Shown here in pieces: positions 2,112-20,609 of a stretch of 26,423 bases of DNA (positions are counted from its first letter, which is position 1; every line of letters begins with the position of its first letter). The DNA lies in IMG/VR virus record IMGVR_UViG_3300044972_001182, positions 1 to 26,423 of that record. The stretch is one strand, 5' to 3'. The translations under genes and the position numbers were made by a program. Under the pieces are notes generated by a model. That model was not told the origin of the DNA. It was given only the letters and a program-made list of their open reading frames with translations, and ran no database searches. The DNA comes from a virus.

Positions 2112-2381
2112 ATGAAGTTAAGATTAATAAAAACGTGGAACGGCAAGCCAGTAGGCGCAACAGGTGTATTCCTTTCCGACTTTGGCAAGCAACTTGTTGC
2201 CGATGGCATTGCAGAACATCTTGATGATGACTTTGTGGTCGAGCAGATGCCAGAGAAACAAGTGCAAGAGGCACCTCAACCTATTTATATTCCGGTGCCA
2301 ATGCCTATGGAGTATTTTGAGCATGAGAATGAATTGGAAAAGATTGATGTTAATATAGATTTGTCAAAAGCTAAAAAATAA
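2112..2381 (+). CDS. Small structural-region protein, function unknown
   Basis: The 89-residue protein has an N-terminal half, MKLRLIKTWNGKPVGATG followed by DFGKQLVADGIAEHL. This resembles short proteins found beside tail tube genes in many phages, where a K-x-W-x-G-K-x-x-G pattern is followed by an A-x-x-L-V/I-x-x-G-x-A segment. The second half is acidic and rich in proline and methionine (IYIPVPMPMEYF), so is probably unstructured. It lies 2 bases after the DUF3168 gene and 4 bases before the tail tube gene. A minor head or tail decoration role is possible but not shown. Confidence 0.6.
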   Translation: MKLRLIKTWNGKPVGATGVFLSDFGKQLVADGIAEHLDDDFVVEQMPEKQVQEAPQPIYIPVPMPMEYFEHENELEKIDVNIDLSKAKK

Positions 2382-2385
2382 TAAA

Positions 2386-2814
2386 ATGGCAACAACTGGA
2401 ATAATTAATGGTACGTTGATGCGCTTGTATAAAGATTCGACTGCAATCGGTTACGCGACATCCTGCCAAATGAACATTTCTGCAGCAATGCGTGAAATTC
2501 TTACAAAGGATTCAGCAGCTGGAGGATGGAGGGAAGTAAAGAAGGGTCAGTTATCCGGCACACTTTCTACCGAGGCATTGTATGCAGGGCCTGGTGATTC
2601 ATCTACCAATTACTTGTTTGATGATCTCTTTACCGACTTGATTAGTGGTACTGCGCTTACTATTAAGTTTACTACCGATGTACAAGGTGACAATGTGTTT
2701 ACAATGTCTGCTATCTGTACATCATTAGACCTTAATGCAGCAGTGGAAGAAAATACAAGCTACTCTGCATCTTTTGAGGTGACAGGTGCAATCGTGAAGA
2801 CAACAAAAGCATAA
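2386..2814 (+). CDS. Major tail tube protein
   Basis: The 142-residue protein has the features of TP901-1-type tail tube proteins. The N-terminal strand is GTLMRLYKDSTAIGYATSC, followed by a polar loop (REILTKDSAAGGWREV), a central helix around the sequence YLFDDLFTDL, and a C-terminal beta pair ending SASFEVTGAI. Such proteins polymerise into the hexameric tube through which DNA passes. Its place directly before the chaperone and tape measure genes is the usual one. No domain for a contractile sheath is seen nearby, which supports a non-contractile tail. Confidence 0.85.
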   Translation: MATTGIINGTLMRLYKDSTAIGYATSCQMNISAAMREILTKDSAAGGWREVKKGQLSGTLSTEALYAGPGDSSTNYLFDDLFTDLISGTALTIKFTTDVQGDNVFTMSAICTSLDLNAAVEENTSYSASFEVTGAIVKTTKA

Positions 2815-2829
2815 TAAAAATTACCTAAC

Positions 2830-3159
2830 ATGAAAACAATAAAAATAGCTAATGCGGACATACCAGTTAAGTTTGGTATGTTCGTGTTAGGTACATTTTT
2901 ACGGGAGAGGAATCTAAAACTTAGCGACCTCTCCCAACTTGGCGAAGACCTCCTATTTGCTCTTGAACTTGCCTTTGCAGGTGTACAGGCAGGTTACAAG
3001 GCAAAGGGAGAGAAGTGCCCATATACCTTAGAAAAGTTTTGCGACTTAGTAGATTTGGATAAGGGAGGAATAAACAGGATAACGGAGCTGATAACAAATG
3101 AGATTTCAGTACCAGAAGATCCGGAAAGAAAAAACGAGATAGCGGAGGAGCAGAATTAA
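2830..3159 (+). CDS. Tail assembly chaperone, short form (gpG-like)
   Basis: The 109-residue protein reads from ATG at 2830 to the TAA at 3157-3159. It begins MKTIKIANADIPVKFGMFVLG, then is largely helical (LGEDLLFALELAFAGVQAGYKA) and ends with an acidic tail (PEDPERKNEIAEEQN). Sequence similarity is hard to judge, but the position between the tail tube and tape measure genes is where lambda gpG-like chaperones stand. Near its 3' end lies a clear slippery heptamer (3129-3135), which allows a longer product. The short form binds and protects the tape measure during tail assembly. Confidence 0.75.
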   Translation: MKTIKIANADIPVKFGMFVLGTFLRERNLKLSDLSQLGEDLLFALELAFAGVQAGYKAKGEKCPYTLEKFCDLVDLDKGGINRITELITNEISVPEDPERKNEIAEEQN

Positions 3160-19397: not shown

Positions 19398-20036
19398 TTA
19401 AAATTTCCACCAGTCTTTTTCTGATTCCATTTGGCTATTTACAAAAGTTTTATAACTTTTTTGAATTTCAGCATAAGGAACTACAAAGCCTGGTAATTGA
19501 TTTTCAAAATGTACGTTGCAATATTGATTCATAAAATCATAAAGAACAATATCATCAATGATTTGAAAATTTTCAACTGTTTTATTTGCATTTAAATTCA
19601 TGGAAGTATTTATTACAATATTCCAGTTTTCATTTTTTAACAGTACAAATTTGGCATGAACGCGAGCCATTCTAATATTTTCGGTGCCAAATAATTCATC
19701 TAATGCAATAGCATAATTTTTCTTTCTTGATGGAAAAGACATATCTGTAATAATTTTTAAGGTATTAATCATTTTAGTCTCAACCATCCATTTAATATTA
19801 TGACTATCTTTTATCCCAGCCGACCAAGTGCAAATTACTATATCTGCATTGCCAATCTTTTTTAATACTGCGTAAATAACATCAATTAAGCTAAATTTTC
19901 CATCGGTAAATCCATACACTTGACAATGAGGATACAATATTTTTGTAATATTATCAATATTCCCAGTATTAAAAACTCCTATATCCTTTTGCTTAAAGTG
20001 ATATTTAACGTCTTTAAAATTATCTGTTTTACTCAT
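19398..20036 (-). CDS. PLD-like nuclease family protein
   Basis: The 212-residue product has a single phospholipase-D-type motif. His127 and Lys129 (RVHAKFVLLKN) are followed by NIVINTSMNLNANKTVENF. This matches H-x-K...G/T-S-x-N...E of PLD nucleases, although the middle Asp is replaced by Asn (N135 in KNEN). A preceding strand ADIVICTWSAG fits the first half of the fold. A single HKD motif suggests activity as a dimer, like Nuc-type nucleases. The upstream gene (stop 6 bases away) encodes a helix-turn-helix protein, so they form a pair. Sequence is AT-richer than the nucleotide genes around it, as if inserted. It could be a DNA nuclease of a defence or exclusion module. Confidence 0.7.
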   Translation of the reverse strand: MSKTDNFKDVKYHFKQKDIGVFNTGNIDNITKILYPHCQVYGFTDGKFSLIDVIYAVLKKIGNADIVICTWSAGIKDSHNIKWMVETKMINTLKIITDMSFPSRKKNYAIALDELFGTENIRMARVHAKFVLLKNENWNIVINTSMNLNANKTVENFQIIDDIVLYDFMNQYCNVHFENQLPGFVVPYAEIQKSYKTFVNSQMESEKDWWKF

Positions 20037-20042
20037 AAAAAT

Positions 20043-20333
20043 TTATTTATTACGTTTTTTTAAAGCATCGAATCTTGATCTTTTACGGAAGTCAAGTTTG
20101 TCAAGTGCTTTAATGTCCCCAGATTTTGCCATATCAAATAATTTTAAATCGATAACATAGTCAGCCATATCAACACCTTTTTGGTATAATTTATAAAAGT
20201 CTGATGAAATATTTTTCATTTCTTTTATAATTTCTTGCTCTGGAACATCTAAAATATTACTCATTTTCAATGAATCGTATTCAAATACTCCAAAATTTAC
20301 TATTTGTTCTTCTTGTTCTTTTAAAATTACCAT
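20043..20333 (-). CDS. Small helix-turn-helix protein, terminase-small-subunit-like
   Basis: The start is taken as ATG 20333, giving 96 residues; an in-frame TTG at 20366 (MRIFKII) is possible but weaker. The protein has LKMSNILDVPEQEIIKEM, which looks like a helix-turn-helix, then a helix (YKLYQKGVDMADYVIDLKLFD) and MAKSGDIKALDKLDFRKRSR. The last part resembles the small DNA-binding subunits of phage terminases and related repressor-like proteins (aL...lAk.GD..Al). A terminase subunit far from the capsid genes would be unusual, so a dedicated partner of the downstream PLD-like nuclease is as likely. A function is not shown. Confidence 0.5.
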   Translation of the reverse strand: MVILKEQEEQIVNFGVFEYDSLKMSNILDVPEQEIIKEMKNISSDFYKLYQKGVDMADYVIDLKLFDMAKSGDIKALDKLDFRKRSRFDALKKRNK

Positions 20334-20609
20334 TATATTGTTTTTTATTATTTTAAAAATGCGCAAGGACTGGACTTGATACCAGCATAAACCATAATAG
20401 TTGGTGTGATTTATTTTATCTTCTTAAATAAGGTGTTCAGCCACTAACCAACATTGCCGAATCCTCTCTTTTAACTCGATGCGTTTACATTCCGCCACCT
20501 TGCTATTTGCCTGTCTTTCCAGGCTGCCAATTCATCCTCTGACACAATAGGATGGAAAGAAATGTTTAATCAGTAAACAAAACATCCTACTCCGAGGTCT
20601 GCAAATATT
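20334..20609 (-). other. 276-base gap with structured, tRNA-like and short reading-frame features
   Basis: The gap separates the PD-(D/E)XK region from the HTH/PLD cassette and is the longest stretch without a clear gene. It holds nested hairpins (20533-20589), a D-arm-like and T-arm-like pair 144 bases apart closed by GCAAGG/CCTTGC (20498-20503 and 20363-20368), and two overlapping minus-strand reading frames with protein-like content but no convincing start. One ends AAWKDRQIARWRNVNASS, the other AECKRIELKERIRQCW. I cannot decide between a decayed gene, a frameshifted small gene and a structured RNA. A promoter for the cassette is also likely here. Confidence 0.35.
20533..20589 (-). repeat. 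Mutually exclusive hairpins sharing one AGGATG arm
   Basis: On the plus strand CATCCT occurs at 20533-20538 and 20583-20588, and AGGATG at 20549-20554 can pair with either. The pair 20548-20554/20583-20589 (7 bp) also encloses a second stem, GTTTA 20564-20568 with TAAAC 20574-20578. Only one of the two outer hairpins can form at a time, an arrangement seen in attenuators and switches. Confidence 0.35.

Follow-up and report, generated by a model that had tools for sequence, protein, structure and literature searches.

A PLD nuclease gene and a small TerS-type gene as an accessory pair in a viral contig, with a possible root in phage packaging modules

Results

Organization of the gene pair and its surroundings

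The window, that is, the whole stretch of 26,423 nt that was analyzed, carries two intact ORFs on its minus strand, with a small gene (here termed SMALL) ahead of a PLD gene. The features at the locus are as follows.

19398..20036, minus strand: single-HKD PLD nuclease, NucT-like, 212 aa (phrog_16945, tblastn, AlphaFold2, invariant residues and pN/pS)
20043..20333, minus strand: SMALL, a predicted HTH followed by a helical hairpin, 96 aa, classed as TerS-type from its position and architecture (AlphaFold2; PLD neighbors in 20 of 41 loci)
20334..20609, minus strand: 276-base gap (fold z -1.13)
20362..20503, minus strand: putative tRNA-like element, 142 nt (shape of the MFE fold; independent of the pair)
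20509..20524, minus strand: hairpin GCCTGGAAAGACAGGC (read from the sequence; absent from the terminator-scan list in the window)

The two ORFs are separated by 6 bases, and the preliminary description of a two-gene HTH and PLD set with this spacing was thus confirmed. SMALL was read from an ATG start (96 aa), and an alternative TTG start would give 107 aa. Downstream of the pair lie ThyX, a dATP/dGTP pyrophosphohydrolase-type gene and a dCTP deaminase gene, and a 136-aa gene and a PD-(D/E)XK gene are located on the upstream side, in agreement with the location between nucleotide genes and a nuclease gene that had been described. The stop codon of the PLD gene falls inside a leader sequence that is kept before ThyX in relatives. 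The GC content of the pair is 0.266, compared with 0.36-0.38 in the flanks, and other pairs were likewise AT-richer than their own loci (five pairs compared). The pair adjoins early nucleotide genes, and no TerL was found in the record of the window. The best named match of the tape-measure protein of the window was from a Cellulophaga phage (29%).

The PLD nuclease

The PLD protein matched phrog_16945 ("endonuclease") with an E value of 2.2e-44, and its Pfam PLDc_2 score was 18.5 bits, under the cut-off of 27. In tblastn searches it recovered 55 phage records, all below 60% identity and nearly all from actinophages, many of which are labeled "NucT-like nuclease"; no relatives were found in the plasmid collection, and profile searches directly against PDB sequences gave nothing useful. 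A putative relative in another contig (L003) was a false match, with just 14 residues matched. Neither protein of the pair matched an HNH domain in Pfam or PHROG.

The AlphaFold2 model of the PLD protein (pLDDT 88.1, 41-row alignment) was nearest in fold to Nuc of Salmonella (Z 12.6, rmsd 2.6, 137 aligned residues), followed by NucT of Helicobacter (Z 12.4), and the restriction-system PLD nucleases BfiI, SauUSI and NgoAVII also occurred among the fold matches. Residues H127, K129, N147, N149 and E155 were invariant in 42 rows, and N135 was present in at least 90% of them. The earlier remark that the motif carries Asn instead of the usual Asp holds approximately: N135 follows H127-x-K129 close to, rather than exactly at, the usual Asp position of the HKD motif. 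The protein therefore has the PLD fold in its model and the HxK and downstream Asn/Glu residues of Nuc/NucT-like proteins, with the HKD Asp replaced. Because pN/pS was 0.09 against the relative of 89% identity in L002, sequence comparison indicated that the PLD gene is under purifying selection.

The gap before the pair and a cargo hotspot before ThyX

The preliminary description took the 276-base gap for a structured leader standing in front of the pair. This was ruled out by its fold, which was no better than that of shuffled sequences (z -1.13, with 28 of 200 shuffles equally good), and by the tRNA-like element, which is present at the same site in phages without the pair. The gap itself had no Rfam match and no ARAGORN tRNA match. 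The element appears to consist of acceptor, D-arm-like and T-arm-like stems, with an arm of ~60 nt replacing the anticodon arm. Five relatives that are without the pair (L070, L071, L072, L082 and L099) carry it at this site with 97% conservation, and its core 30-mer occurred in 5 viral contigs only. In the empty relatives, the hairpin GCCTGGAAAGACAGGC is directly followed by a T-run. Other relatives carry at the same spot a tRNA-Phe gene identified by ARAGORN (L066, L075 and L078), other tRNA-like elements or small ORFs. The site before ThyX is a cargo hotspot.

Several further features of this site were recorded. A set of tRNA-like elements, comprising those of L067 (7412-7547), L077 (3692-3796), L079 (3281-3402), L071 (6805-6898), L086 (7415-7499) and the window, had in common an acceptor stem of the GCAAGG..CCTTGC type and mostly D-arm-like and T-arm-like stems, and their middles were very different (69 to 142 nt). 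The elements of the window and L067 showed a near-identical five-part fold, in which the ~60-nt arm stands where a tRNA has its anticodon arm, although their middle sequences are unlike each other. Approximately 170 bases before ThyX, four contigs (L070, L073, L077 and L099) encode a membrane-type protein of ~50 aa as further cargo; in three of them (L070, L073 and L099), the ThyX leader (TTAAACCATATCGTTGAC...) is duplicated and flanks this gene on both sides. A different small Cys-containing ORF lies at the ThyX site in L095.

The small protein

SMALL had no Pfam, PHROG or NCBIfam family above cut-off, and no relatives were found in named phages at an E value of 0.1. Its AlphaFold2 model (pLDDT 93.1, 21 rows) contains three short helices (residues 5-17, 21-28 and 32-40) followed by two long ones (45-70 and 74-95). 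According to a review of small terminases (PMC9611059), TerS architecture comprises an N-terminal HTH and a central helical hairpin, with protomers of 15-21 kDa. The model of SMALL has this HTH and hairpin, and its estimated size of ~11 kDa (96 aa) lies below the TerS range. No significant TerS fold match was obtained (best Foldseek E 0.36, Z at most 4.5), and the TerS Sf6 gp1 was among the top fold rows only weakly (E at least 0.5, Z ~4). In hhalign comparisons, SMALL weakly matched the TerS-type partner of a PLD gene in L196 (E 6e-4, probability 28%) and did not match the partner in L010 (E 0.21). Relatives of SMALL lie directly before TerL in three contigs (L119, L120 and L121). We thus call SMALL TerS-type, on the basis of its modeled architecture and its position, rather than a proven TerS.

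An accessory and reshuffled insert

We collected 35 loci (34 records) with a close relative of the PD-(D/E)XK gene of the window. The site from PD-(D/E)XK to ThyX was spanned in 30 of these loci, none of which carried the pair, and was not spanned in the other 5. Neither PLD nor SMALL was found anywhere in the 34 relative records, in a search in which the PLD query detected the window itself. The pair is an accessory insert in this phage group, and the earlier view of it as inserted cargo was borne out by the 30 empty sites and the low GC content.

The packaging modules that could be read in the relatives have the order HNH-TerS-(TM)-TerL (L108, L109, L110 and L111), and L112 begins at TerS. 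Because all 34 relative records are without the pair and the readable modules are of the HNH-TerS-TerL kind, the pair is dispensable for packaging. The preliminary description had also raised the case that the small protein might be a genuine TerS required for packaging. SMALL is TerS-type by position and model, but since these relatives are without SMALL and have their own Terminase_4-type TerS, it is not the required TerS of this group. In L112, a DNA methyltransferase-type gene (721-1389), apparently in two frames, was observed between the TM gene and TerL.

In three related phages (L002, L007 and L008), the same place in the module is occupied by PLD-SMALL-TerS1 instead of the TerS2 found in L108, L110 and L111; HNH is also present in the modules of L002 and L008, and L007 begins inside PLD. 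Flanking sequence in L008 shares 84% identity with L108 and L110, and no alignment was obtained for the block that is exchanged. The coordinates of the swap are 1904-3347 in L008 and 2790-3390 in L110. SMALL coexists with a Terminase_4 TerS in L002, L007, L008, L117 and L119 (Pfam-tested in L002, L117 and L119).

The window PLD is 89% identical to the PLD of L002, whereas the corresponding SMALL proteins are only 42-43% identical; conversely, the window SMALL is 70% identical to SMALL of L113 and L115, whose PLD belongs to another subfamily. In the PLD tree, grouping by type was recovered in 100% of 200 bootstraps. In the SMALL tree, the NucT-linked rows formed a single group in 0% of 200 bootstraps, and 3-4 changes would be needed. 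One clade was not rejected by the AU test (p 0.142 with five rows and 0.070 with ten rows). These results suggest that the window copy is likely a new combination produced by a partner swap of PLD and SMALL, and we grade the swap as likely rather than proven because the AU test leaves a single clade standing.

Pairing across viral and bacterial contigs

A scan of viral contigs, which in IMG/VR are mostly fragments, yielded 41 SMALL loci. A PLD gene directly adjoins SMALL in 20 of them, mostly with an overlap of 4 or 14-16 nt; PLD comes first in every neighboring pair other than that of the window, which alone has SMALL first. The PLD partners belong to three subfamilies, NucT-like, "MAWYDL" (PLD2) and L121-type, of which the "MAWYDL" proteins match the NucT profile at E values of 1e-5 to 1e-11 and the L121 protein scores above the Pfam PLDc_2 cut-off. 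The remaining 21 loci without an adjacent PLD comprise 19 from one large-phage lineage, a lone SMALL among tail genes and one locus at a contig end. In the large-phage lineage (L129, L130, L133-L148 and L150), the SMALL relative stands before tandem ParB-like genes and no PLD gene is present.

Scanning with the alignment of NucT-like proteins recovered 60 loci, in which SMALL occurred within 1 kb in 7 and a short Terminase_4-like gene in 44. In the other nine, an HTH gene and then TerL follow in L010 and L012, TerL is near in L059 and L061-L064, and L024 and L065 are cut. The distance to TerL was at most 3 kb in 32 loci and greater than 3 kb in 14, and TerL was not found in 14, in a search with ten seed proteins and three Pfam models that divergent TerLs can escape. 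The partner in L045 scored 34.3 bits in Pfam Terminase_4 against a cut-off of 24.7, and those in L029 (24.6) and L022 (18.8) were below it. In L132, a NucT-like gene (2376-3007) is split over two frames that overlap, which may reflect frameshifting or an error in the sequence. Bacterial genome contigs contributed 28 NucT-like loci, 14 of which had a P27-like partner by our own profile, one of them weakly (L152); in L153, a longer P27-like gene is followed by TerL.

A scan with the PLD2 alignment gave 31 loci, in which the gene after PLD2 was SMALL in 11, a P27-type TerS in 3 and another gene in 17. When nine of these other partners were sampled against PHROGs, six matched terminase families at E values of 0.01 or below, one matched "exonuclease" and two had no match; of ten such partners sampled against Pfam, two were above the GP3_package cut-off. 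Because the SMALL, PLD2 and P27-like profiles derive from loci of this same analysis, the counts lean toward these families, and the Pfam and PHROG searches on samples served as an independent check. Some loci are near-copies (L113/L114, L119/L120 and L211/L212), and some contigs entered two scans (L009/L131, L011/L126, L013/L127, L014/L124 and L007/L151).

The pairing of SMALL and PLD is beyond chance. Homologs of the two genes are not always apart, being neighbors in 20 of the 41 SMALL loci and across three PLD subfamilies, and the proposal that the nuclease and a DNA-binding partner of its own form one unit was well supported. The suggested search for synteny of HTH and PLD genes in phages and bacteria showed that the pairing recurs, including with other TerS-type partners, in many bacterial viruses that are not related to one another, frequently next to genes of the packaging motor.

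Discussion

A proposed reader and cutter unit

We proposed that a TerS-type reader directs a PLD nuclease, in a unit rooted in packaging or genome-end processing that here has become mobile cargo. SMALL, as a TerS-type DNA reader, would bind phage DNA and bring the NucT-like PLD nuclease, presumably dimeric, to it, and the nuclease would then nick or cut the DNA. We read SMALL as positioning the nuclease because TerS-type genes from several unrelated families lie directly behind PLD genes, often overlapping them and often near TerL. The analysis showed that the genes are paired, where they lie, the predicted fold of each single protein, the conservation of the catalytic residues, purifying selection and the accessory status; the physical interaction of the two proteins, their DNA target, the cutting and the packaging role are what we infer for the pair. 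The home of the unit would be the packaging module, where PLD genes stand before, and often overlap, small-terminase-type genes near TerL, and its job there may be genome-end or concatemer processing beside the terminase, comparable to that of HNH proteins. The window unit would be an accessory copy in the cargo hotspot before ThyX, probably formed when a NucT-like PLD and a SMALL related to that of another PLD subfamily were joined in reversed order. We give this reading about an even chance, because homing or exclusion of competitors would account for the patchy and reshuffled window copy no less well than packaging would.

Under such an explanation by intronless homing, the PLD nuclease would cut the equivalent site of co-infecting relatives without the pair, and repair would spread the pair together with a linked TerS or ThyX allele. 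The absence of the pair from all 30 spanned sites, with variable presence at a fixed site among close relatives, the exchange of PLD-SMALL-TerS1 and TerS2 en bloc, the low GC content, and the reshuffled partners in reversed order would all be expected, and PMC10448857 describes a hot spot for homing-type nucleases upstream of the terminase and regards homing and packaging roles as compatible. However, the flanks of the swap are no more alike near the junction (at a resolution of whole blocks, ~84%), the hotspot also takes cargo without a nuclease gene, and the constant TerS-type linkage is unexpected for a plain homing nuclease. We consider homing or exclusion of competitors the main alternative, though a rather doubtful one. 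It is unlikely that the pair serves in defence or takeover, with the nuclease destroying host or unrelated-phage DNA and SMALL acting as a regulator or specificity factor. An AT-rich accessory insert and the known occurrence of PLD nucleases in restriction systems such as those among our fold matches would suit this role, but PADLOC gave no match to the window proteins, the unit is without a methylase, helicase or immunity gene, and its relatives are located in packaging modules. Filing the pair as a known anti-phage defence system was rejected, as PADLOC returned 0 families for either window protein. The roles named in the preliminary description, superinfection exclusion, host DNA degradation and interbacterial defence, thus received no direct support, and the evidence points to packaging-module nucleases instead. 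That two common phage genes are merely carried together is very improbable: the 19 SMALL loci of one lineage that stand before ParB-like genes without PLD would fit, but adjacency in 20 of 41 loci, mostly with short overlaps and in three PLD subfamilies, and the recurrence of TerS-type adjacency in independent scans argue against it.

As a broader and more tentative proposal, the reader directing a nuclease may be one form of a general modular reader and cutter in tailed phages, in which almost any TerS-type protein may couple with a PLD nuclease. Within packaging modules it would process genome ends; a detached form such as that of the window would be a mobile unit that cuts competitor phages at their packaging or allelic sites.

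Significance

The nuclease family is already named in actinophage records, and the parts are known. In searches of an open-access collection, mostly at the level of listings, we did not find the rule of a PLD nuclease with a TerS-type partner, the SMALL family or a detached copy, and the text of PMC10448857 contains neither "PLD" nor "phospholipase". HNH proteins are recognized nuclease helpers of phage terminases, and PLD with a TerS-type partner, if our reading is correct, would be a second class. Many terminase-side genes labeled "hypothetical" or "NucT-like" would then gain a testable role, and the detached and reshuffled window copy would show a packaging part turning into mobile cargo.

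Comparison with known systems

The closest known proteins are the actinophage NucT-like nucleases (a SEA-PHAGES name; phrog_16945), which share 37-42% identity over ~140 residues in phages of Corynebacterium, Gordonia and Arthrobacter. They hold the corresponding position ahead of a gene of small-terminase type, from which three small genes separate the nuclease gene in BetterKatz. Their partner is Terminase_4-like, whereas that of the window is SMALL, which is placed first and in the hotspot at the ThyX side. In linear coordinates, ~32-35 kb lie between the NucT/TerS-like pair and TerL in Arthrobacter phages, where the neighbor of TerL is a different small gene ("terminase small subunit" in Eesa and "DNA binding protein" in Abidatro).

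The small terminases (Sf6 gp1, P27/Terminase_4 and gp3-type) resemble SMALL in the HTH and hairpin of its model and in the position next to TerL in L119-L121, but SMALL has just 96 aa, has no family match and coexists with a Terminase_4 TerS. The HNH packaging endonucleases of the HK97 gp74 type are likewise encoded by small nuclease genes adjoining TerS and TerL, and gp74 promotes cos cleavage with TerL, as stated in PMC9410871. The packaging modules of L002, L007, L008 and L119 carry PLD, with HNH present too in L002, L008 and L119. In contrast to the HNH kind, the nuclease of the pair has a PLD fold; in those modules PLD occurs alongside HNH and does not take its place, and it could be a functional analog only. 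Finally, the phage homing endonucleases at exchange boundaries, as described in PMC10448857, are also terminase-adjacent nucleases that vary among close relatives, and packaging and homing roles can go together there; the pair differs from them in its constant TerS-type partner.
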